From a virus, in the IMG/VR virus record IMGVR_UViG_3300025120_000718, positions 1-20,663 of that record: a stretch of DNA of 20,663 bases; one strand, written 5' to 3'. The number at the start of each line of letters is the position of its first letter. Position 1 is the stretch's first letter. Of the stretch, positions 3,349-15,365 are shown piece by piece. The notes under the pieces were generated by a model. That model saw only the letters and a program-made list of their open reading frames with translations. It was not told where the DNA came from and ran no database searches. Made by a program: the position numbers and the translations under genes.

Positions 3349-3834
3349 TTAAAAGTTTAGGATACAATAATCCATAGCTATTGTGATATCTAGGCTAACT
3401 GCTGCTTCAGCACTCCAATCGTATTCTCCAAAAGTTGCTGTTTTACAATATGCGCCTTTTATAACCCATTGAGATACTACATCTCCTACAGGTCCTAAAA
3501 TATCTAGCTGAATGTCTTTTTTGTAGAAATCGGAGTAACCGTCTCTACCTGTTACGCTTTCATGCGCTAATCTTGCCCATTCCATTACGGCTTGTGCACC
3601 GGATGGAGTTACAGGGTCATATAGTGATAAAGTCATATCATTCCATCTTACTTTACCTTTTACTTTTCTATATACATTTATATGATCTAATACCACCTCA
3701 CCAGCGTCAAATCCAGGAGCAGAAGCAGTCTTTACTAAGTATGATGGAATACCATCGATAAACATAATAAATCTATTTTGCACCTTTGGTTCAAAGGCGG
3801 TGAACATTATTTCATTTGGATCTTTTACTGCCAT
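3349..3834 (-). CDS. gp19: Tail tube protein, T4 gp19-like
   Basis: A 161-residue protein of the T4 gp19 tail tube family, which forms the inner tube of the contractile tail as stacked hexameric rings. Supporting features are the length (T4 gp19 is 163 residues), the N-terminal NRFIMFIDGIPSYLVKTASAPGF segment with the strand-turn after DGIPSYLV typical of tube proteins, the KVRWNDMTLSLYDP strand, and the C-terminal GEYDWSAEAAVSLDITIA strand pair. It lies directly downstream of the sheath gene, as in T4, with 29 bases between them. The start follows an AATATTTATA motif by 13 bases and lacks a Shine-Dalgarno sequence. Confidence 0.92.
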   Translation of the reverse strand: MAVKDPNEIMFTAFEPKVQNRFIMFIDGIPSYLVKTASAPGFDAGEVVLDHINVYRKVKGKVRWNDMTLSLYDPVTPSGAQAVMEWARLAHESVTGRDGYSDFYKKDIQLDILGPVGDVVSQWVIKGAYCKTATFGEYDWSAEAAVSLDITIAMDYCILNF

Positions 3835-3847
3835 TTTTATTGTTTAT

Positions 3848-3857
3848 TATAAATATT
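3848..3857 (-). promoter_or_regulatory. Candidate late promoter motif before tail tube
   Basis: AATATTTATA, 13 bases before the tube ATG, filling most of the 29-base gap after the sheath stop. Confidence 0.5.
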
Positions 3858-3863
3858 ATGTTT

Positions 3864-5636
3864 TTAAATTTCTACCCCAGTTGGTGTAACGTTAAAGTCT
3901 AGAATTATAAATTCAGCCGTTCTTGTTGGTTGAATAAATACTTGACCTACTAATTGGTTTCTATCTATTACATCTGGTGTATTATTAGTATCATCCATTA
4001 CAACTCTAAACGAGAATATACCTTGTCTTTGTTGTACTGATTCTAAGTATGGATTAACTTGGTTTAAGAATCTACCTCTTGTGGCAGCTGTATTTTGTTC
4101 AAATAATAATCCTTCACCAATTTGACCAATTACTCTTTTAAGCTCTATTAATAATCTTCTAACATTTACTCTATCTAACGCTGTAGATTTTGTTTGTAGT
4201 GTTTTCTGACCAAATATAGTTGGACCTTGTCCTGGGAAAGAAGCAATCGGATTAACTTTTCCTAAATATAATTTATCTCTATCAGATGGAGTTAATTTTC
4301 TTTCTGCTTGAATTGCACCTACTACACCACCTCTATTAAATCCTGCTGGAGCGAACCATTCAGCACCTAATCTATCGTTAGTAGTATAGACAGCTGGTAT
4401 TAGTGTTGAAGCAGGTACCTGTACTAATTTATTAGTTTCAGGTGATAGTGCTTGAACCCATGGCCAGTATGTAGCTGCAAAGCTAGAATCTACTGTTGCT
4501 GCAGATGTAATTGCTTGGTTTATAGTTGATCCATAATTTCTAGGATCAATTACTGCAATTGAATCTCCTCTTTCTGTTACAGTTGATATAGCTGTTGTTG
4601 TTGCTATAGCACCGTTTTGCATATTAACACCTGGGAGTGTTAAAATTTCAAAATCATATTCGTCTTTATTTTCTAATAAGTTTAGTGAAGCTGTATAGTT
4701 AGCTGCAACTAATCCTTGAATTGAATCTGATGCTATTTCATCATTCATTTTTAATTTAATAGCACCTGTTCCTTTACCAAATGTGTGGCCTGCTGCACCA
4801 CCAAAGGCTCCTTCTTCTCCTGCGTTATTTAATGAGCCACTTCCTAATTGTGGTAATGATGAAGTATATTCTGGTTTGAAGTTACCTTCATTATCTAAAT
4901 AATTAATAGTAGGGTTAATTACTGATTTAACTCTTACAAATCTACTATTATTTAGGTAAGATCCTGTAATTTGAATAAAATTATTACCATCACTATCTGT
5001 ATCAAAGTTTCTAGTTTGGTTACCAATAACTGATTCAATATAATTTGTTGAATTTGGATCTAATGATAAATTAGTCCAAGTTTCTAAAACAACTTTATTA
5101 GCTGTTGTATCATCTCCTCTTCTAACTAATAAATTAAATGTACCACTTCCAGAATCTACATTAGCAATTTCAAATCTTAAGTTATCTGTAGATCCAGATA
5201 CTAAAGAACCACTAGTAGAAACAGCACCTCTATTATTCATTAATTCTCCTTTTGAGATTGATTCTAATGTAAAGGATCCTGTTTTATGATCGTTTGAAGC
5301 ATAGCTACGACTAATACCAAGACCACAAATAGATGCAGTTGCTGGTAAAAATGTGCCAGATACTATTCTAGTAATTAACATTGTTTCACCTCCTGCTTGG
5401 AAGTAATTATAGGCAGAAATTGAAGTTAAGTATTCAAAAGTAATACTTGCGCTTTCAAATGAACCACCAAATTTATTTTTGTATTCACTATATGAAGTTA
5501 CTAAAGTTGGAATATTCACAGGACCTTTTGTAGTTGGACCTAATATAGCAGCAGCAGCAACAACTGGACCTTGTGTGATCTGTGTTTGATCGTTTTCACG
5601 TGTTAGTACACCAGGGGATAATAAAGTTTCAGCCAT
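3864..5636 (-). CDS. gp18: Contractile tail sheath protein, T4 gp18-like
   Basis: A 590-residue sheath subunit that contracts around the tube to drive it into the host envelope. The N-terminus has the typical SPGVLTRENDQTQ start and GPVVAAAAILGPTTKGPVN, followed by VTSYSEYKNKFGG. The C-terminal conserved domain contains RRLLIELKRVIGQIGEG, FLNQVNPYLESVQQRQG and a final NQLVGQVFIQPTRTAEFI segment followed by a terminal beta strand. Residues of about 100-330 form the variable Ser/Gly-rich surface insertion. It is somewhat shorter than T4 gp18 (659 residues). The tube gene follows immediately. The start ATG at 5636 lies 22 bases after a motif variant (TATATTTATC). Confidence 0.93.
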   Translation of the reverse strand: MAETLLSPGVLTRENDQTQITQGPVVAAAAILGPTTKGPVNIPTLVTSYSEYKNKFGGSFESASITFEYLTSISAYNYFQAGGETMLITRIVSGTFLPATASICGLGISRSYASNDHKTGSFTLESISKGELMNNRGAVSTSGSLVSGSTDNLRFEIANVDSGSGTFNLLVRRGDDTTANKVVLETWTNLSLDPNSTNYIESVIGNQTRNFDTDSDGNNFIQITGSYLNNSRFVRVKSVINPTINYLDNEGNFKPEYTSSLPQLGSGSLNNAGEEGAFGGAAGHTFGKGTGAIKLKMNDEIASDSIQGLVAANYTASLNLLENKDEYDFEILTLPGVNMQNGAIATTTAISTVTERGDSIAVIDPRNYGSTINQAITSAATVDSSFAATYWPWVQALSPETNKLVQVPASTLIPAVYTTNDRLGAEWFAPAGFNRGGVVGAIQAERKLTPSDRDKLYLGKVNPIASFPGQGPTIFGQKTLQTKSTALDRVNVRRLLIELKRVIGQIGEGLLFEQNTAATRGRFLNQVNPYLESVQQRQGIFSFRVVMDDTNNTPDVIDRNQLVGQVFIQPTRTAEFIILDFNVTPTGVEI

Positions 5637-5658
5637 TTTATTCAGTTATTTTATCAGT

Positions 5659-5668
5659 GATAAATATA
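5659..5668 (-). promoter_or_regulatory. Candidate late promoter motif before tail sheath
   Basis: TATATTTATC, differing from the common form in the first and last bases, 22 bases before the sheath ATG. It lies within the 51-base gap after the small coiled-coil gene. Confidence 0.42.
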
Positions 5669-5687
5669 TAAGAAATTTATAAAAACA

Positions 5688-5945
5688 TTAGTTGGTAGGA
5701 ATAATTTCACCTGTTTTTAAATCAATTTGGGAATTCCCATATTTTTCTTTTAGATTATCACCTAATTCTTTTTCTTCGTTAATTAATTTTTCGTATTCAA
5801 GATCTATAATCTCTTTTTCTTTTTTAATATTTAATTTTTTTAACTCTAATTGTCCTAATCTAATGGTAACATTTTGAATATTATCCTGAAAGTTCTTTAT
5901 TAAATCAAGTTCTTCTTGAGTTGCTTTATTTTCTTGTATTGCCAT
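5688..5945 (-). CDS. Small coiled-coil protein of unknown function
   Basis: An 85-residue protein. Residues 8-70 form one long, highly charged helix with hydrophobic spacing typical of a coiled coil (segments such as LGQLELKKLNIKKEKEI). It ends in a short Gly-containing strand-like tail, QIDLKTGEIIPTN. It begins two bases after the stop of the S74 fibre gene (TAG, two bases, ATG) and has no motif of its own, so it is probably translated by coupling to the fibre mRNA. Co-expression with the fibre and position before the sheath suggest a role as a fibre chaperone or attachment factor. That is inference; I do not recognise a named family. Confidence 0.75.
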   Translation of the reverse strand: MAIQENKATQEELDLIKNFQDNIQNVTIRLGQLELKKLNIKKEKEIIDLEYEKLINEEKELGDNLKEKYGNSQIDLKTGEIIPTN

Positions 5946-5947
5946 AA

Positions 5948-8254
5948 CTAATTTTTATTTTCTAATTTTTCTATTCTCTCGTTTAAACCCTGTATTGTTT
6001 TTAATAACAATGCTGTTAATTTAGTGTAACTAATTCCTAATGCGCTTCCATCTGCACCATTAGTAACTAATTCAGGATATATTTTTTGTACTTCCTCTGC
6101 TATTAATCCGAAATCTTTTTTATTATTATTTCTCCATGTAAAGTGTACAGGTCTTAATTGGTAAATATCATCTGCCTGCCTATTAATATCTTTTACTGAT
6201 TTTTTATATCTTAATGCTGATGTTTCAGTTAATGATGTTACAAAAGCTGAACCTGTTACAACTAATGAACCAGATACTTCAACCGCATTTACTCCTGATC
6301 CAGTTATGTTTAAAGTACCACTTATTGCCGCTGATCCTGTATGTGGAAATCCTCCTACACCTGTTAAGCTAGCACCACTACCTTGGAATGAACCACTAAA
6401 TGAACCTGAACCTGCTCTAGATAATGTAGAGATATTAGCAAATGAAGCCGTTGCGGCAGCACTTAATGTTGTAGCTCTTGCAGCTACAGAAGCTGAGGTA
6501 GCGGTTACAGTTGGTGCTAATGCGTTTGCTCTTGTAGCTACTGATGCTGTTTGAGCATTAATAGCTGTTGAAGCTGAAGTAGCAGTTACTGTTGGTGCCA
6601 ATGCGTTTGCTCTTAGCGCTACTGATGCTGTTTGAGCATTAATAGCTGTTGAAGCAGATGTTGCCGTAACTGTTGGTGCTAAGGCATTTGCTCTTAATGA
6701 TACTGATGCTGTTTGTGCCGTTGTAGCTATTGAAGCTGAAGTAGCAAATGAAGATGAAACGGGGGAGGTATCTAATATATAAATAGGACCACCCATAGCT
6801 GCATGTGAAGTACATTGATAATATAATACTTCAGGGGCTTCCATAGATACATTGAAAGTTAATGTTTCATTGTTACCTGCATTATTATTTGTTACACCAT
6901 TATTATATGCAGTACCAGCTGAACCATTTGGAGTTACTTGAATTCGGAATGGATGTCCACCAGATTTATTTGTAAATTTATACTGTTGACCTCTAATTAA
7001 ATAAATATCTGGATCAGCTGTTGAACCTGTAAAACCAGGTCCTGTAAAAGTATAATCACTTGATCCATTAGCTCCTAAAATCCATTCAGAAGTATATGTA
7101 GCAATGTTTGCAATTGAAGCTGTTCCAGCAGTATGTGATGCTGTAGTAGCACTATCTGCAAAAGAAGCAGTAGCTGTAGGAGCTAAAGTGTTTGCTCTAA
7201 TAGCAACGGAAGCTGTTTGGGCTAATATTGCTGTTGAAGCAGATGTAGCTGTTACTGTTGGTGATAAGCTATTAGCTCTTGCAGCAATAGAAGCTGATTG
7301 AATTGAACCTGAAGCTATTACACCTGTTAATAATGTACCATCTCCTTGGAATGAACCACTAAATCCACCTACACTAGATGAAATATTACCTTTAACAATC
7401 ATACTACCTGTTTGTAGTAAACTTCCAGTAATTTGTTGGATATCATTTGCTTTATCACCAAAAATATTTGATCCAGAAGTAATTACTGTAGAAGAAGATT
7501 CAAATGTTTGTAATACAAAACTTGCTGTAATAGCAGAAATACTAGTTAAACCTGTTAAAGTAGCTGCAGTAGCTCCTAAATCTATTTCTGTTGAACCTAT
7601 AGTAACACTATCGTTTGCTAATTTAGCATTAGTAATATTACCATCGTGTACAGTACCCGCTACACTTGCAAATGAAGCTGTTGCTTGTGCACTTAAAGTA
7701 GTTGCCCTTGCAGCTACAGAAGCTGAGGTTGCAGTTACTGTTGGTGCTAACGAGTTTGCTCTTGTAGCCACGGAAGCTGTTACAGCAATAGTATCAGGTA
7801 ACCCTAATGTTACTTTTACATCATTACTAACTCTTGTTACTGCTGTTGAAATTTCATTTGTAGTACCAAGAATTTGTAGATCATCTGCTGTTAAACTTAC
7901 ATCTTGTGTTCCAGTATCACCATCAACTGTTAAATTAGTTGCTAATCCTGTTAACCCAGAGCCATCTCCTATAAATGAACCACTTACTGTACCACTTACA
8001 AATAAACTACCTGTTAAAGCTGTACTACCACTAACCCTTAATGCTAAAGTTGAGCTACCTGTTACTAATAATGAACCTGAAATTTGGCCTGAACCAGTAA
8101 ATGGGAAGCCTGCTACTCCTTCTAATCTTGATCCATCTCCTTCATATGAGCCACTAAAATGACCACTTGCTGTTGTTACTAATAAAGTACTACCAGTAAT
8201 ATTTACTTTAGTTCCGGAATTTGGGGATATTGCTCCTACTTTTAAGATACTCAT
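5948..8254 (-). CDS. Large tail fibre with cupredoxin-like insert and S74 chaperone tail
   Basis: A 768-residue modular fibre protein. Order: an N-terminal SILKVGAISPNSGTKVNI segment typical of aquatic phage fibres; strand-loop modules (SGSLLVTGSSTLALRVSGS, SGSFIGDGSGLTG) at about 25-110; an LTVDGD/GTTNEI module at about 110-155; Ala/Thr/Ser-rich repeats; a cupredoxin-like domain at 387-495 with His434, Cys481, His484 and Met487 in the spacing of type-1 copper sites; three 27-residue repeats (about 500-580); further strand-loop modules; and a C-terminal S74 intramolecular chaperone (about 679-768) with SALRYK, RPVHFTW and GLIAEEV. In that family a Ser with a Lys five residues on (here S679, K684) carries out self-cleavage, releasing the chaperone after trimerisation. 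It is probably a trimeric adhesion fibre. AATATTTATA ends only three bases before the ATG. Confidence 0.85.
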   Translation of the reverse strand: MSILKVGAISPNSGTKVNITGSTLLVTTASGHFSGSYEGDGSRLEGVAGFPFTGSGQISGSLLVTGSSTLALRVSGSTALTGSLFVSGTVSGSFIGDGSGLTGLATNLTVDGDTGTQDVSLTADDLQILGTTNEISTAVTRVSNDVKVTLGLPDTIAVTASVATRANSLAPTVTATSASVAARATTLSAQATASFASVAGTVHDGNITNAKLANDSVTIGSTEIDLGATAATLTGLTSISAITASFVLQTFESSSTVITSGSNIFGDKANDIQQITGSLLQTGSMIVKGNISSSVGGFSGSFQGDGTLLTGVIASGSIQSASIAARANSLSPTVTATSASTAILAQTASVAIRANTLAPTATASFADSATTASHTAGTASIANIATYTSEWILGANGSSDYTFTGPGFTGSTADPDIYLIRGQQYKFTNKSGGHPFRIQVTPNGSAGTAYNNGVTNNNAGNNETLTFNVSMEAPEVLYYQCTSHAAMGGPIYILDTSPVSSSFATSASIATTAQTASVSLRANALAPTVTATSASTAINAQTASVALRANALAPTVTATSASTAINAQTASVATRANALAPTVTATSASVAARATTLSAAATASFANISTLSRAGSGSFSGSFQGSGASLTGVGGFPHTGSAAISGTLNITGSGVNAVEVSGSLVVTGSAFVTSLTETSALRYKKSVKDINRQADDIYQLRPVHFTWRNNNKKDFGLIAEEVQKIYPELVTNGADGSALGISYTKLTALLLKTIQGLNERIEKLENKN
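6513..6755 (-). repeat. Three tandem 81-bp repeats within the fibre gene
   Basis: Near-identical units begin at 6513, 6594 and 6675, exactly 81 bp apart. Each encodes 27 residues of the pattern TASVALRANALAPTVTATSA plus a short Ser/Ala linker. More divergent single copies occur elsewhere in this gene (about 7170-7290 and 7680-7790) and in the 9064-9906 gene (about 9700-9790). The repeats lie just C-terminal to the cupredoxin-like domain. Confidence 0.8.
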
Positions 8255-8257
8255 ATA

Positions 8258-8267
8258 TATAAATATT
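8258..8267 (-). promoter_or_regulatory. Candidate late promoter motif abutting the large fibre start
   Basis: AATATTTATA only three bases before the ATG at 8254, inside the perfect palindrome TATAAATATTTATA (8258-8271). Because it is palindromic, this is the one site where the T4-type late sequence TATAAATA also reads in the gene's direction (8264-8271), which may be the element used here. Confidence 0.4.
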
Positions 8268-8276
8268 TATAATACA

Positions 8277-8573
8277 TTAAAACTCGTGTATTTTTAAAAA
8301 TGATCCTGCTGTTACAGTAAATGTAACTCCATCATTTATTGTTATATTACCTAATAAACTATTGAATGTGTTAGCTGTAGTAGTAAAGTCAGAAGTAAAT
8401 GTAGCTGGATTGCTAGAACCTATAACACTAACTCCTGTAATACCCGAACCATCACCATTAAATGAACCTGTAAATGAACCTGTAAATGAAGAACCAGTTA
8501 TTTGATTGCTAACTGTTAAAGAAGACAGATTAGCATCTGACCCACTGACGATAAGCTTTTTCCAGTTTGGCAT
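8277..8573 (-). CDS. Short fibre-type virion protein
   Basis: A 98-residue protein whose N-terminus, PNWKKLIVSGSDANLSSL, matches that of the 280-residue protein at 9064-9906 (ATWKKVIVSGSDAELNNL). This is followed by SFTGSFTGSFNGDGSGITGV strand-loop repeats and a short beta-rich C-terminus ending FLKIHEF. It looks like the N-terminal attachment module of a fibre with only a brief tip. It may be a small adaptor or knob, or a shortened paralogue of its neighbour. The frame is open and ends cleanly, so it is not an obvious pseudogene. It has a 65-base leader, the longest in the window, after its AATATTTATA motif. Function is inferred from the modules only. Confidence 0.75.
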   Translation of the reverse strand: MPNWKKLIVSGSDANLSSLTVSNQITGSSFTGSFTGSFNGDGSGITGVSVIGSSNPATFTSDFTTTANTFNSLLGNITINDGVTFTVTAGSFLKIHEF

Positions 8574-9943: not shown

Positions 9944-10319
9944 AGTCTCCTATAAATAAATTACTTCCACTATATAAAATCCCTCCTATAACTGCCGTAG
10001 CACTGCCCTGATATTCTGATAATTGTAGTATACCCTTATTATTAACTTTTAAATTTCCATCAGGGGTTCCTACTTTAAGGGGATCTTCAGTATTTGAGGA
10101 AGACACTTCTAATTTAGCAGAAGCTGATACTAAACCTATTCCAACTCTTTTTGATTCTTTATGAATTAAGATTATTGATTCATTTGAAGTTCCATCAATA
10201 AACTGAATGTTTTCCGTACTACCAACAGTTTGTAATTTTATAGAGCCAGTAGTATCAAATCCATCACCTGTAAAAAATATTGACCCTGATGCAGGCACAA
10301 TTCTTACATTCTTAGCCAT
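9942..10319 (-). CDS. Small fibre-type virion protein
   Basis: A 125-residue beta-rich protein. It starts KNVRIVPASGSIFFTGDGF, has a central RVGIGLVSASAKLEVS stretch of the kind found in shaft domains of phage fibres (typically VGIGTTSPSAKLEV), and ends with GGILYSGSNLFIGD. Its ATG lies inside the last codons of the S74 fibre gene (GATGGCTAA, 8-base overlap), so translation is coupled and the two proteins are probably made in fixed ratio. It may be a partner or cap of that fibre. I do not recognise a named family. Confidence 0.72.
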   Translation of the reverse strand: MAKNVRIVPASGSIFFTGDGFDTTGSIKLQTVGSTENIQFIDGTSNESIILIHKESKRVGIGLVSASAKLEVSSSNTEDPLKVGTPDGNLKVNNKGILQLSEYQGSATAVIGGILYSGSNLFIGD

Positions 10320-12117
10320 CTACTTTTGATTTTAGTATTTCTACTTCTTCTTTTAATTCTTGAACACTTTTTATTAAAACAGATACTAATTTACTATATT
10401 TAATACCTTGTGTAGTTCCATCTGTATTTAAAGTTACAAATTCAGGATATAACATTTGTACTTCTTCAGCAATTAATCCTTTATCTTCTTCTTTACTTTC
10501 TTTCCAAATAAAATCAACAGGTCTTAATAAGGCTACATTTTCTAATTCATTGCCCATTGGCTCAATTGCTTCTTTATATCTTAATGCTGAGGTCTCAGTT
10601 AATGATTGTACAAAAGCTGACCCTGTTACTACTAAACTACCAGAAACATCTATGGCTTTTACACCTGATCCTGTAATATTTAAAGTACCACTTATTGCTG
10701 CTGATCCTGTATGTGGAAATCCTCCTACACCTGTTAATCCTGCACCACTTCCTATAAAGGATCCACTTACTGTACCACTAACAAATAAACTACCTGTTAA
10801 AGCTGTACTACCACTAACTCTTACTGCTAAAGCTGAACTACCTGTAATAATTAATGATCCAGAAACTTTATTAGATCCTGTAACGTTTAATGTACTACCA
10901 TCAAATAATAAATTTGCTTCAGCATTTGCATTAGTAGCATCTACGGATGTAATTACTCTATTATTAGCGGAATTTGCTACAGTATAACCCGCTATTCCTG
11001 TTAAACTAGACCCATCACCTGTAAATGAACCACTTACAGTACCACTTACAAACATACTACCTGTAAATGTGGAACTACCACTAACCCTTAATGCTAAGGC
11101 ACTACTACCAGTTACTATAAGTGAGCCAGATACTGTTCCAGATCCCGTAAATGGAAAAGCTCCTATACCTGTTAACCCTGATCCATCTCCTATAAATGAA
11201 CCACTTGCTGTTCCACTAACAAATAAACTACCTGTTAATGTTGTACTACCACTAACTCTAAGTGCATTTCCTCCACTACCAGTTACTATAAGTGATCCGG
11301 ATAACGCTTGGGATCCAGTTGCATTAAGTTGTCCAGATGTACCTGAACTACCTGATGAACCAGAAGTACCATTAGTCCCAGAAGTACCAGATGATCCTGA
11401 TGAACCACTTGATCCAGAAGAACCAGATGTACCACTCGAACCGGATGATCCAGAAGAACCATATTCACCTGTTAAATTTACATTCCAACTACTGGATGTT
11501 CCCGAGCCATTAACTATGGTTACATTTACTACTAAATTTGTACCGCTATAAGAGGTTACAGGCCCTACCATATACTTTGCGGCATTTCCTGCATCTACTA
11601 TTATAGCATGGTTTCCAGCTATATAGGCAAGACCCGCTGCTACAACAAATGTTTTTGAACCTGTACCAATACTAGTATTAGTAGATGATGTAGTTTTGTA
11701 TACACTACCAGATGTACCTGATGATCCAGATGTACCATTTGTACCAGAAGAACCAGAAGTACCAGATGTTCCAGAAGTACCAGAACTACCCGAAGATCCA
11801 GAAGTACCAGATGATCCAGATGTACCCGAACTACCCGAAGATCCTGAAGATCCACTTGTACCAGAAGTACCAGATGTACCAACTCTAGCTGTAAATCCTA
11901 CATTACCACTTCCAGTATTATATGATAGTATAAATTCAGAATTTGAGATATTACTAATGCTACTACTTTCAATACTTACACTTCCTGTAACTCCTAATGA
12001 ACCTGATATTAAAATATCATTGTCATCTTTTGAAGAAAGTGCATTTATTATTCTTGTAACATGCTCAGATCGGATAATACTACCGCTGATTATACCTGAA
12101 GTACTTATTGTAGCCAT
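10312..12117 (-). CDS. Tail fibre with Gly-Ser/Thr-Ser tracts and S74 chaperone tail
   Basis: A 601-residue fibre. The N-terminal module (ATISTSGIISGSIIRSEHV, to about residue 78) is paralogous to that of the 289-residue fibre. Then come 19 Gly-X-Y triplets (81-137) made only of Ser, Thr, Asn and Gly; an 80-residue beta module with SKTFVVAAGLAYIAGNHAII; a second run of 14 triplets (221-262); three copies of the module SGSLIVTGS...RVSGST..TGSLFVSGT.SGSFIGDGSGLTG; and a C-terminal S74 chaperone (510-601) with SALRYK, LRPVDFIWK and GLIAEEV. The Ser510/Lys515 pair has the spacing of the self-cleaving dyad. Gly at every third residue suggests a collagen-like triple helix without proline. The glycosyltransferase gene lies just upstream and an overlapping small gene follows. 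Confidence 0.85.
   Translation of the reverse strand: MATISTSGIISGSIIRSEHVTRIINALSSKDDNDILISGSLGVTGSVSIESSSISNISNSEFILSYNTGSGNVGFTARVGTSGTSGTSGSSGSSGSSGTSGSSGTSGSSGSSGTSGTSGTSGSSGTNGTSGSSGTSGSVYKTTSSTNTSIGTGSKTFVVAAGLAYIAGNHAIIVDAGNAAKYMVGPVTSYSGTNLVVNVTIVNGSGTSSSWNVNLTGEYGSSGSSGSSGTSGSSGSSGSSGSSGTSGTNGTSGSSGSSGTSGQLNATGSQALSGSLIVTGSGGNALRVSGSTTLTGSLFVSGTASGSFIGDGSGLTGIGAFPFTGSGTVSGSLIVTGSSALALRVSGSSTFTGSMFVSGTVSGSFTGDGSSLTGIAGYTVANSANNRVITSVDATNANAEANLLFDGSTLNVTGSNKVSGSLIITGSSALAVRVSGSTALTGSLFVSGTVSGSFIGSGAGLTGVGGFPHTGSAAISGTLNITGSGVKAIDVSGSLVVTGSAFVQSLTETSALRYKEAIEPMGNELENVALLRPVDFIWKESKEEDKGLIAEEVQMLYPEFVTLNTDGTTQGIKYSKLVSVLIKSVQELKEEVEILKSKVDG
10611..10726 (-). repeat. Near-identical segment shared with the large fibre (6241-6356)
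   Basis: This stretch and 6241-6356 encode the same linker (HTGSAAISGTLNITGSGV then VSGSLVVTGSAFV) just before the S74 domain. In 57 bases starting at 10681 and 6311 there is a single mismatch, far closer than the rest of the two genes, which points to recent duplication or gene conversion. Confidence 0.75.
11332..11457 (-). repeat. Gly-X-Y tract, 14 triplets (second tract of the S74 fibre)
   Basis: Encodes residues 221-262 as SSG/TSG/TNG triplets with a 9-base DNA rhythm. Gly is strictly at every third position and there is no proline. Confidence 0.85.
11707..11877 (-). repeat. Gly-X-Y tract, 19 triplets (first tract of the S74 fibre)
   Basis: Encodes residues 81-137. It is made of SSG, TSG and one TNG and ends at the beta module SVYKTTSS. 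The 289-residue fibre has a tract of about the same length before the homologous junction (SVFQGTST). Confidence 0.85.
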
Positions 12118-12143: not shown

Positions 12144-14462
12144 CTAATAAATATTAGACAAAGTTTGACTAATGGCTTTTATTACATTTTTTGGAACAAT
12201 TTTTTTAGTGCATTCAAATTGCCTTGATGTGTTTTTATGGACAGGGCACCAATCCCAATCTCCAGCATCTAATTTAAAATTATTAAAACAAGAATTACAT
12301 ACATTTTTATTAATAATTCGTTTAACATTAGATGTAAATTCAGTCCAATCTGCACTAAATCCCGATATCATTACTACTGGTTTTTTTAAAGCCCATGATA
12401 ACCATGCTAAACCACTAGAAACTCCTATATATAATTCTGAATGGTGTAATAAATTAATTGTATCTTCAAGAGGAATATTTCCTGTTTTATCTATTATATT
12501 CTTAAATGGTTTACCTTTAGGAAGCTTTGTGTTTTCAAAATTATCATTGTGTTTTTCTTTTGATATTTGAACCACTTTATAACCTTTATTATTTAAATCA
12601 TTTATAATATCTTGCCATCCAGTAGGGTGTTGCCAATATTTTGCTCCAGCAGATGCATGGGGTGATATACATACATATTTTTCTTTAATTGGTCTTTTTT
12701 TAATTTTGTAATTTATTTTAGGAATAATTTCTTTATATTCTAAACCTAATATATTAGTAGCAGTTTGTTGTAATGGATATGCCTTTGGGTCTTTAGATTG
12801 TTTAAATCCATCTAAATTATCTCCATCATCCCCATAAAACCACCCTACTTCATACATTGCATATAAATTAGGAACGGTACTACCAGGTTCTACAAAATCT
12901 AATTCAGGATACTTTTTTAGAAAAAAGTCATTCCAAAAAGTAGATACTGTTATAAAACAATTATGTTTCTTTTTAAATTCTAAAACATAAGGAAACCATG
13001 CTAGAGTATCTCCTAAAGATTTAGAACCAAGTGATATAAAAACTCTTTTTCCTGAAGCATTATATTTGTAAGATGATATTACTTCGTTAAATTTATCTTT
13101 TATTTGTATATCCCAATTTATAAAATATTTGTGGTATGATTTACCCCAATGGTTGTTTTTTAAATTTACAGAATATTCACTTTTACCTGTACTTTGATTA
13201 ATAAAGTCTACTAGATAATCCTGTTTAGCATCTCTTAAACAAGCATAAGGACCATCTACAAAATTAATTTCTAATTTTGGTTTTTTTATTATTGGTTTTA
13301 ATTTAATTGTTTGTAGACGTTTAAATGCTTTTTGAGCTTGTTTTTTCCAAGAATATTCTTCTCTTATTTCTTTAGAACGATGTAAATGCCATTTTTTCCA
13401 TATATTGTAATTATTATAAGAATCTTTAATTTTATCAACTAAATCATCTAAATCTGGAGTGTAAAAATTGCCTGGAATATTATGTTCATAGGTTAAATTT
13501 TCATTATTAGTTGCAGGTTCTTCTCCTATAACTTTTACCCCTAATCCTTTATTTTTAGTAAATTCTAATTGTCCTGAACATTTAGTGTAAATGGATGGTG
13601 TTCCACAAGCTAATGATTCTATTAATGGTAAATTCCATCCTTCAGAACGAGCACAAGATATTAATACATTAGAATTTTGTAGTAATGAAATGTATTGTTT
13701 TCTATTTAAAAATTTTAGTATTTTTATTCTATTATCTTCTAAACCATAATATTTTAAACGTTCTTCAGTAGTTTGCATACCATCTACAGGATATGGATTT
13801 TCTACATTTAATAATAATTCAACATCAGGGTTATCAGGAAATGCTTTTAAAAATCCTTCTATACTTTCTTTAATACCTTTTCTATAATCCCACCTACCTA
13901 CTATAACAAATTGAAATTTCTCTTGTTTTTTATTTTTAGAATTTGGTTTAAATAATTTACCATCTACCCCTTCTGGTATTACAAAAATTTTATCTTGAGG
14001 ATATCCTTGTTCTATTGTAATTTCTTTTTGCCATTGAGTAGGAACCCATAACTCATCTAAACGTAAAAGTTGTTGGAAAAATTGTTCTGAATATCTAGTA
14101 GATTCCCAAACATTATATCCTATTTTATAACCATTATATGCATCATAAAAATAATGATGATCATGTTCCTCTAATATAATATCAATATCTGATGTATAAT
14201 TTTCTTTATAGGAATAAATTGGATGGTCTTTTCTAGTACTATCATTTTCAAATAGAGTTTGCAAATGAAGCATTTTTTTCATTTGAGGTGTTATATAAGA
14301 TTCTCTATTATGAGGTGTTGAATTAGGCCAATTAAAATTTTTACCTACAGTAAAATTTCTAACCTTTATGGGTATTATTTTATCTAATTCTGTAAAAAAA
14401 GATTGGGCATGGTTAGCATAACCCGTAGTGCCTATAAAACTCGTATGAGCTTGTATTTTCAT
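12144..14462 (-). CDS. Two-domain glycosyltransferase: GT4 plus TibC-like O-heptosyltransferase domain
   Basis: A 772-residue enzyme. Residues of about 1-390 form a GT-B fold of the GT4 type: KIGYNVWEST and LDELWVPTQWQ, then IPEGVDGKLFKP, VGRWDYRKG (about 188-196) and EGWNLPLIESLACGTP with the E-x7-E sugar-nucleotide motif (about 272-287). Residues of about 400-772 match the bacterial autotransporter O-heptosyltransferase family (TibC/Aah): FVDGPYACL, NINW-type strand before GKRVFISLG, SLGDTLAWFPYV (the Asp corresponds to the catalytic base of related GT9 enzymes), STFWNDFFLKKYPELDFVEP, PTGWQDIINDL, LSWALKKPVVMISGF, and four cysteines C722, C725, C739 and C751 (VCNSCF, WDWCPVH, FECTK) as in the iron finger of TibC. 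No signal peptide or membrane segment, so it is cytosolic. Flanked on both sides by Ser/Thr-Gly fibre genes, it probably glycosylates fibres; sugar and acceptor are unproven. Confidence 0.88.
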   Translation of the reverse strand: MKIQAHTSFIGTTGYANHAQSFFTELDKIIPIKVRNFTVGKNFNWPNSTPHNRESYITPQMKKMLHLQTLFENDSTRKDHPIYSYKENYTSDIDIILEEHDHHYFYDAYNGYKIGYNVWESTRYSEQFFQQLLRLDELWVPTQWQKEITIEQGYPQDKIFVIPEGVDGKLFKPNSKNKKQEKFQFVIVGRWDYRKGIKESIEGFLKAFPDNPDVELLLNVENPYPVDGMQTTEERLKYYGLEDNRIKILKFLNRKQYISLLQNSNVLISCARSEGWNLPLIESLACGTPSIYTKCSGQLEFTKNKGLGVKVIGEEPATNNENLTYEHNIPGNFYTPDLDDLVDKIKDSYNNYNIWKKWHLHRSKEIREEYSWKKQAQKAFKRLQTIKLKPIIKKPKLEINFVDGPYACLRDAKQDYLVDFINQSTGKSEYSVNLKNNHWGKSYHKYFINWDIQIKDKFNEVISSYKYNASGKRVFISLGSKSLGDTLAWFPYVLEFKKKHNCFITVSTFWNDFFLKKYPELDFVEPGSTVPNLYAMYEVGWFYGDDGDNLDGFKQSKDPKAYPLQQTATNILGLEYKEIIPKINYKIKKRPIKEKYVCISPHASAGAKYWQHPTGWQDIINDLNNKGYKVVQISKEKHNDNFENTKLPKGKPFKNIIDKTGNIPLEDTINLLHHSELYIGVSSGLAWLSWALKKPVVMISGFSADWTEFTSNVKRIINKNVCNSCFNNFKLDAGDWDWCPVHKNTSRQFECTKKIVPKNVIKAISQTLSNIY
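12146..12155 (-). promoter_or_regulatory. Candidate late promoter motif before the 601-residue fibre
   Basis: AATATTTATT (one mismatch), 28 bases before the ATG at 12117. It overlaps the stop codon of the glycosyltransferase gene. Confidence 0.42.
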
Positions 14463-14495: not shown

Positions 14496-15365
14496 CTAGA
14501 AAGCTCCAATAGTTACTTTCTTCCATTGATGACCATCATAAAAAGCTAAATTTGATCCAGTTACTGCTAGAGAACCTGAATTTATTCCACTTGATGGTAA
14601 TGGGTGGCTGGGAGATAATTCTAAAATGGCAGATCCAGTAACTTGAAGTGATCCTGATATTGTTGCTGATCCCGTAAATGGAAAACCACCTACATTTAAA
14701 GTAGATTCTAAATTAGTAGTCCAGCTTGTATGATTACCACTACCACCTATAACTGTAACATTAACAACTAATTGTCCAGTTGAAGAATTATAACTATTAA
14801 TTTTACCTACCATAAAATTAGCAGCATTTGCAACACTAGTTATAGAAACTGATTGTCCTACTGTATATGCTAATCCCGCACTTGTTGTAATAGTTTTAAC
14901 TCCTGTACCTATAGCTATATCAGTAGTTGAAGTACCTTGAAAAACACTTCCACTGCTTCCTGAAGTTCCATTTGTGCCACTTGTTCCAGAACTACCAGAT
15001 GTGCCCGAACTACCCGAAGATCCTGAAGATCCACTAGTTCCACTATTACCAGAAGTACCAGAAGATCCAGCAGCACCATTAATTCCAGATGTTCCATTAG
15101 TTCCTGAAGTACCAGAAGTACCAGAGGTAGAATTTGTACGATATATATCTCCTGAGGAAGTATTATAAGCTAGTACTACGGCATGATTAGAAATATTGAT
15201 TATACTTTCAGTGGCAATTCTAAGACTACCTGAAACATTTAATGATCCAGATAATGCTATATCAAAAGGGCCAGATGTACCATTAAGAGCATCAATTGAT
15301 CTTAATACATGTGTAGCATCTATTACACTACCACTTGTTATTCCTGTTGTACTAATTGTTGCCAT
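14496..15365 (-). CDS. Tail fibre-type protein with Gly-Thr/Ser-Ser tract
   Basis: A 289-residue protein. The N-terminal module (ATISTTGITSGSVIDATHV, about 1-78) is paralogous to that of the 601-residue fibre. Then there are about 19 Gly-X-Y triplets (83-139, mostly TSG/SSG), the same 80-residue beta module (GVKTITTSAGLAYTVGQSVS, about 145-225), a short strand-loop unit (GFPFTGSATISGSLQVTGS) and a C-terminus ending LAFYDGHQWKKVTIGAF. It has no S74 domain, so it is effectively the first 40 percent of its paralogue with a different tip. It may be a proximal fibre segment that carries the longer fibre. The glycosyltransferase gene begins 34 bases after its end. The start follows TATATTTATA by 11 bases. 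Confidence 0.8.
   Translation of the reverse strand: MATISTTGITSGSVIDATHVLRSIDALNGTSGPFDIALSGSLNVSGSLRIATESIINISNHAVVLAYNTSSGDIYRTNSTSGTSGTSGTNGTSGINGAAGSSGTSGNSGTSGSSGSSGSSGTSGSSGTSGTNGTSGSSGSVFQGTSTTDIAIGTGVKTITTSAGLAYTVGQSVSITSVANAANFMVGKINSYNSSTGQLVVNVTVIGGSGNHTSWTTNLESTLNVGGFPFTGSATISGSLQVTGSAILELSPSHPLPSSGINSGSLAVTGSNLAFYDGHQWKKVTIGAF
14949..15119 (-). repeat. Gly-X-Y tract, 19 triplets (289-residue fibre)
   Basis: Encodes residues 83-139 with Gly every third residue. X and Y are Ser, Thr or Asn, apart from one ING and one AAG. A 9-base DNA rhythm is visible. It produces long but spurious open frames on the opposite strand. Confidence 0.85.

Follow-up and report, generated by a model that had tools for sequence, protein, structure and literature searches.

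The window, which is a complete IMG/VR virus fragment of 20,663 bases, encodes a fused glycosyltransferase that a T4-like aquatic phage probably uses as an O-glycosyltransferase dedicated to its virions. As read from its sequence and surroundings, it would modify the phage's own fibre stalks, with a TibC-like domain priming the glycan and a GT4 domain extending it. The T4-like late genes of the window, located on the minus strand, encode the major capsid protein gp23, the sheath, the tube and fibres. The closest annotated matches of the capsid protein are in Flavobacterium phage immuto (55%) and Microcystis phage Mel-JY01 (50%). The sequence-only reading had placed the enzyme gene between two fibre genes, and its open reading frame is real. 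It runs from the start at 14462 to 12144, is co-oriented with both flanking fibre genes (at distances of 33 and 26 bp), and the plus strand at the same coordinates is crowded with stops. The features of the enzyme are as follows.

12144..14462, minus strand: fused glycosyltransferase gene, GT4 + TibC-like, 772 aa (ORF, profiles, model)
13293..14462, minus strand: GT4 (GT-B fold) domain, aa 1-390 (Pfam, PHROG, fold)
13617..13643, minus strand: E-X7-E motif of GT4, E274...E282 (alignment; invariant in 42/42)
12147..13283, minus strand: TibC-like domain, aa 394-772; beta-barrel (aa 394-478), then GT9-type GT-B catalytic domain
13008..13010, minus strand: D485, equivalent to the TibC catalytic base D110 (invariant in 42/42; PMC4358343)
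12210..12299, minus strand: four-cysteine iron finger, C722, C725, C739 and C751 (cysteines kept in 41/42)

The C-terminal half is a homologue of the bacterial autotransporter heptosyltransferase (BAHT) family by score and by fold. Profile search and structure prediction, which had been proposed as checks of this part, both lead to TibC. The NCBIfam profile TIGR04414 (hepto_Aah_TibC) matches at E 7e-94 with 314.9 bits (cut-off 200), and TibC crystal-structure sequences match at E about 1e-55. We built an AlphaFold2 model of the fusion from an alignment of 42 phage sequences (mean pLDDT 86). The top 21 Foldseek matches of the model are all TibC chains, and VIA-align superposes residues 394-772 on TibC 21-391 with Z 38.0 and an rmsd of 3.0 A over 364 residues, beta-barrel included. 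The pTM of 0.55 leaves the relative placing of the two halves unfixed. The motifs SLGDTLAW, STFWNDFF and WDWCPVH and the four cysteines lie exactly where the sequence-only reading had located them. Taking the roles of TibC residues from PMC4358343 and mapping them onto the alignment of 42 sequences, we found, among the donor-binding residues, the equivalents of K230 (K608) and W305 (W687) to be invariant (42/42), and that of T226 to be S604 here and T or S in 42/42. The fusion thus has in common with TibC and AAH the fold with its N-terminal beta-barrel, the catalytic Asp, the Lys, the Trp and the four-Cys iron finger. In a sister pair of fusions (L477:8918-11221 and L085:997-3348; support 100/97), the iron-finger cysteines have been lost and the catalytic residues kept.

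The joining of this domain to a GT4 domain, also claimed earlier, is borne out by a complete N-terminal GT4 half. It matches Pfam Glycos_transf_1 (PF00534) at E 1e-14 and the glycosyltransferase family phrog_2170 at E 4e-40 over residues 12-384. The nearest solved fold to this half of the model is 3oy2, a chlorovirus glycosyltransferase (Z 33.4, VIA-align). Both hallmarks of GT4 glycosyltransferases, the GT-B fold and the EX7E motif, are therefore present. The invariance of that motif and of the catalytic residues of the TibC-like half indicates that both active sites are under selection.

The C-terminal half probably works like TibC in outline, but the comparison does not support the name 'heptosyltransferase'. 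In TibC, R286 contacts the adenine of ADP-heptose and bears on the choice of ADP-sugar, and a beta-hairpin thumb (Phe265/Val266) is required for the dodecamer (PMC4358343). The equivalent of Arg286 is Thr668 here; the position holds I, V, T, L or S in 41/42 aligned sequences and R in 1/42, and the arginine is retained in some distant relatives (L462, L464-L467, L003 and L087). The thumb region is deleted in 31/42 sequences and is modelled in the window as a low-confidence helix (F642/E643). With the adenine-reading arginine replaced and the thumb missing, the donor and the oligomer of TibC are not to be assumed. The partner differs as well: TibC and AAH act on an adjacent autotransporter with strand-loop-strand repeats, whereas the fusion, set behind a GT4 domain, has collagen-like phage fibres as neighbours. 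For these reasons, and for want of an autotransporter partner, we advise against naming the protein an autotransporter heptosyltransferase.

The fusion is not peculiar to the window and is carried by at least 80 virus contigs: a scan of viral contigs gave 181 stretches encoding a relative, of which we kept the best 80, mostly full length and 41-80% identical. Among the annotated isolates of the phage collection searched, one has a match over at least 80% of the protein, Mel-JY01, where the fusion is at 4750-8430 and its product is named 'methyltransferase FkbM'. A search of openly available papers turned up none that describes TibC-like domains in phages, which is weak evidence of absence. Fusion and sheath gene are both present in 75 loci, and in all of them the sheath follows downstream of the fusion on the same strand within 8.5 kb (within 1 kb in 47). 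The position of the fusion among the virion late genes is thus constant wherever the sheath can be seen. In the window, this landmark is the following.

3864..5636, minus strand: tail sheath, conserved landmark downstream of the fusion

A scan for consensus promoters and terminators gave sites no more frequent than in shuffles. Other phage GT-B enzymes glycosylate DNA bases against restriction, and this role could be extended to the fusion. Such a reading is highly improbable, given a domain of the TibC type, which glycosylates protein, and a gene placed in a late structural operon; a base-modification gene was not seen within the window.

The distant phage relatives that we scanned nearly all have the GT4 domain followed by the TibC-like domain, with further domains in several of them (FkbM methyltransferase, DXD-type, GT25 or class I methyltransferase). 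The tandem is therefore general, and by its domain make-up it resembles a glycan assembly line. At L035:10264-11727, a gene for a PIG-L-type de-N-acetylase follows the fusion, and at L042:7983-11717 the C-terminus of the fusion itself carries a segment that looks similar, which hints at the processing of an N-acetyl sugar. At L017:6848-9160, the fusion is split, with ORFs of 487 and 234 aa, although the contig has the same layout as L005 and L007 in other respects.

The fibre genes around the enzyme had been noted earlier, and the 289- and 601-residue neighbours are indeed real and collagen-like by Pfam PF01391 (E 6e-9 and 6e-17).

10312..12117, minus strand: 601-aa fibre with two (Gly-Ser/Thr-Ser)n collagen-like blocks, Ser/Thr-Gly beta repeats and an S74 chaperone end; likely acceptor
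11701..11880, minus strand: its collagen-like block 1, aa about 80-139
11293..11463, minus strand: its collagen-like block 2, aa about 219-275
14496..15365, minus strand: 289-aa fibre with a 20-triplet collagen-like block; likely acceptor
14943..15128, minus strand: collagen-like block of the 289-aa fibre, aa about 80-141
5948..8254, minus strand: 768-aa S74-ended fibre with an excess of Ser-Gly; possible further acceptor

Both neighbours contain uninterrupted Gly-X-Y runs of 20 triplets, and the two flanking fibres have Ser-Gly pairs in excess of what their composition predicts (56 and 25, against 23 and 10). The acceptor proposed earlier, a strand-loop-strand repeat, has to be replaced: the associated repeat is a collagen-like Gly-X-Y with X=Ser/Thr and Y=Ser. 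In most collagens adjoining fusions, X is Ser or Thr, Y is Ser (roughly 55-98%) and Pro is almost absent. Each Y-position Ser precedes a Gly and so forms a Ser-Gly pair. The two TibC sites mapped in a TibA peptide are both Ser-Gly, with Thr unmodified (PMC4358343). We dropped the Y=Ser bias as a discriminator, the medians being 0.82 in TibC+ and 0.81 in TibC- records with a Ser/Thr collagen; since TibC- records have the same bias, the Ser-Gly fit is compatible with a TibC-like enzyme and is no evidence of specificity.

The evidence for a partner comes from association in both directions. In the forward test, we took sheath loci that extend 5 kb or more upstream and asked for an upstream ORF with at least 15 consecutive Gly-X-Y triplets. 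Such an ORF was found in 17/37 fusion-bearing and 1/19 fusion-free loci (p=0.002; this and the following p-values overstate independence and are optimistic, most records being fragments and kin by descent). Across whole records, an 8-triplet Gly-(S/T)-(S/T) DNA pattern occurred in 21/51 TibC+ and 1/29 TibC- sheath records (p=2e-4). Among the sheath controls there was one clear exception, L146:2-4423, a 213-triplet Ser/Thr-rich collagen-like ORF on an 11-kb fragment that has the sheath but not the fusion. In the reverse test, records were picked by their repeat DNA only, checked for real ORFs and then searched whole for TIGR04414. The TibC-like domain was present in 21/50 Ser/Thr-collagen records and in 1/50 Gly-Pro-X records (p=9e-7), and this single Pro-collagen record also has Ser/Thr triplets; among records shorter than 60 kb the counts were 9/34 and 0/41 (p=4e-4). 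GT4 domains were found in 23 Ser/Thr and 9 Pro records. Among these GT4-bearing records (which by our counting include those with a TibC-like domain), the TibC-like domain occurred in 21/23 and 1/9 (p=4e-5). The association with Ser/Thr collagens is thus more than a general enrichment in glycosyltransferases. A collagen-like ORF lay within about 5 kb of the enzyme in 12/20 neighbourhoods fetched. From these genomic data, the partner of the enzyme appears to be a (Gly-Ser/Thr-Ser)n collagen-like stalk. Neither strictly requires the other, because a Ser/Thr collagen is not within reach in about half of the fusion-bearing loci, and the TibC-like domain was not seen in 29/50 Ser/Thr-collagen records.

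These counts bear on two other targets. The enzyme could remodel a host surface polysaccharide, the O-antigen, and so block superinfection, as was proposed for glycosyltransferases of pelagimyophage fibre regions from GT8-type enzymes (PMC7029224); the C-terminal domain is also distantly GT9-like, as are LPS heptosyltransferases. We regard this as unlikely. The best match is to the protein-modifying TibC branch (315 bits, against at most 44 for LPS models), down to the TibC beta-barrel and iron finger, the association is specific to Ser/Thr and not Pro collagens, and wherever a sheath gene can be seen the enzyme is encoded among the virion late genes. Taken together, the data argue for a virion target over the host O-antigen. 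That target could be another virion protein (the S74-ended beta-repeat fibres, the sheath or the baseplate), with the collagens mere neighbours in a variable region. The beta-repeat fibres of the window are likewise rich in Ser-Gly and Thr-Gly, and some fusion loci are without collagens. This too is improbable, because the reverse test, starting from collagens, recovers the domain in phages both large and small whose gene neighbourhoods differ widely, and because a bacterial locus described below has a Gly-Thr-Ser lipoprotein and no phage fibre.

Of the earlier proposal that the phage glycosylates its own fibres, what stands is the function, which the two-way genomic association leaves as the likeliest; heptose, the strand-loop-strand acceptor and the 'borrowed' origin are not supported. 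For glycosylation of the fibre stalks, we infer activity, acceptor site, sugar, linkage, order of steps and benefit as follows. Expressed with the late genes, the enzyme would act in the cytoplasm on fibre chains as they are made, before the virion is assembled. The TibC-like domain would put the first sugar on the Ser preceding Gly in the proline-free (Gly-Ser/Thr-Ser)n stalks of the neighbouring fibres, and the GT4 domain would lengthen it. We favour this order because TibC acts directly on protein. The modified stalks would then be built into the tail, where the glycan may stabilise and hydrate stalks that have no proline, shield them and tune adsorption.

The idea of a recent loan from adhesin systems finds no support in these sequences. 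In a tree of 34 rows, TibC and an AIDA-partner enzyme from Paraburkholderia form a tight pair (100/99) that joins a phage enzyme (99/95) inside wider phage diversity; the tree is midpoint-rooted with three bacterial rows, a thin sampling, and does not fix the direction of transfer. When we searched TIGR04414 across the class of G003 (369 genomes), the seed genome alone was over the cut-off, so bacterial relatives are thinly sampled. A scan of genome contigs gave four loci; one of them, L086, has sheath and tube genes and clearly belongs to a phage. Plasmid-borne BAHTs align to residues 400-770 only and are annotated as stand-alone; the one that we inspected adjoins an AIDA-repeat gene. In an Arenicellales MAG (L087), a (Gly-Thr-Ser)n lipoprotein-like ORF (3596-3934) lies directly upstream of a stand-alone TibC-like gene (4042-5178), and the two are possibly a bacterial glycoprotein pair.

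A virus that modifies its own collagens has a precedent in Mimivirus, which infects amoebae and relies on a lysine-based chemistry and a different enzyme. The likeness lies in the hydroxylation and glycosylation of its own collagen-like proteins, as cited in PMC8968730. In Clostridioides difficile, SgtA, encoded just upstream of bclA3, glycosylates the collagen-like repeat of BclA3 (PMC7157674). There too a glycosyltransferase gene adjoins a collagen-like gene and Gly-X-Y repeats are O-glycosylated, but SgtA is a single O-GlcNAc transferase of other domain make-up, the repeats are Gly-Pro-Thr and the structure is the spore coat, not a virion. Mycobacteriophages encode glycosyltransferases thought to modify virion proteins (Freeman 2023, cited in PMC12619734); as cited there, the targets are the C-termini of capsid and tail-tube subunits and a TibC-like domain is not reported.

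More tentatively, and at rather less than an even chance, the fusion may belong to an undescribed general phage system. Fused glycan synthases (GT4 + TibC-like, with FkbM methyltransferase, GT25 or DXD-type domains in larger members) would build oligosaccharides on proline-free Gly-Ser/Thr-Ser stalks, the glycan would replace the stabilising role of proline, and the autotransporter heptosyltransferases would have branched off from this family of collagen-modifying enzymes. If the fibre stalks are indeed the target, aquatic phages of a large and common group use enzymes of their own to make glycoprotein fibres, and the glycosyltransferases that crowd phage fibre regions, so far read as modifiers of host LPS, would need rereading. 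There would be consequences for adsorption, for the stiffness of fibres and for the recognition of receptors. A simple rule would follow: where (Gly-Ser/Thr-Ser)n is found, look for a TibC-like domain.

Pro-rich collagens lie near the fusion in four loci, two of which also have a Ser/Thr collagen elsewhere in the record. Where the fibre beside the fusion is Pro-rich (Gly-Pro-Ile/Gln), a 203-aa 2OG-Fe(II) oxygenase (PF13640; L025:5323-5934 and L480:12700-13311), perhaps a prolyl hydroxylase, is encoded between fibre and fusion; L045, L071 and L078 have an equal-sized gene in the same place. In Mel-JY01 (L002:2-3052; PP395634.1), a plus-strand ORF close to the fusion has a run of 149 Gly-X-Y triplets. 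GenBank annotates minus-strand hypothetical proteins over it (1-651 and 739-2298), which are probably antisense miscalls.
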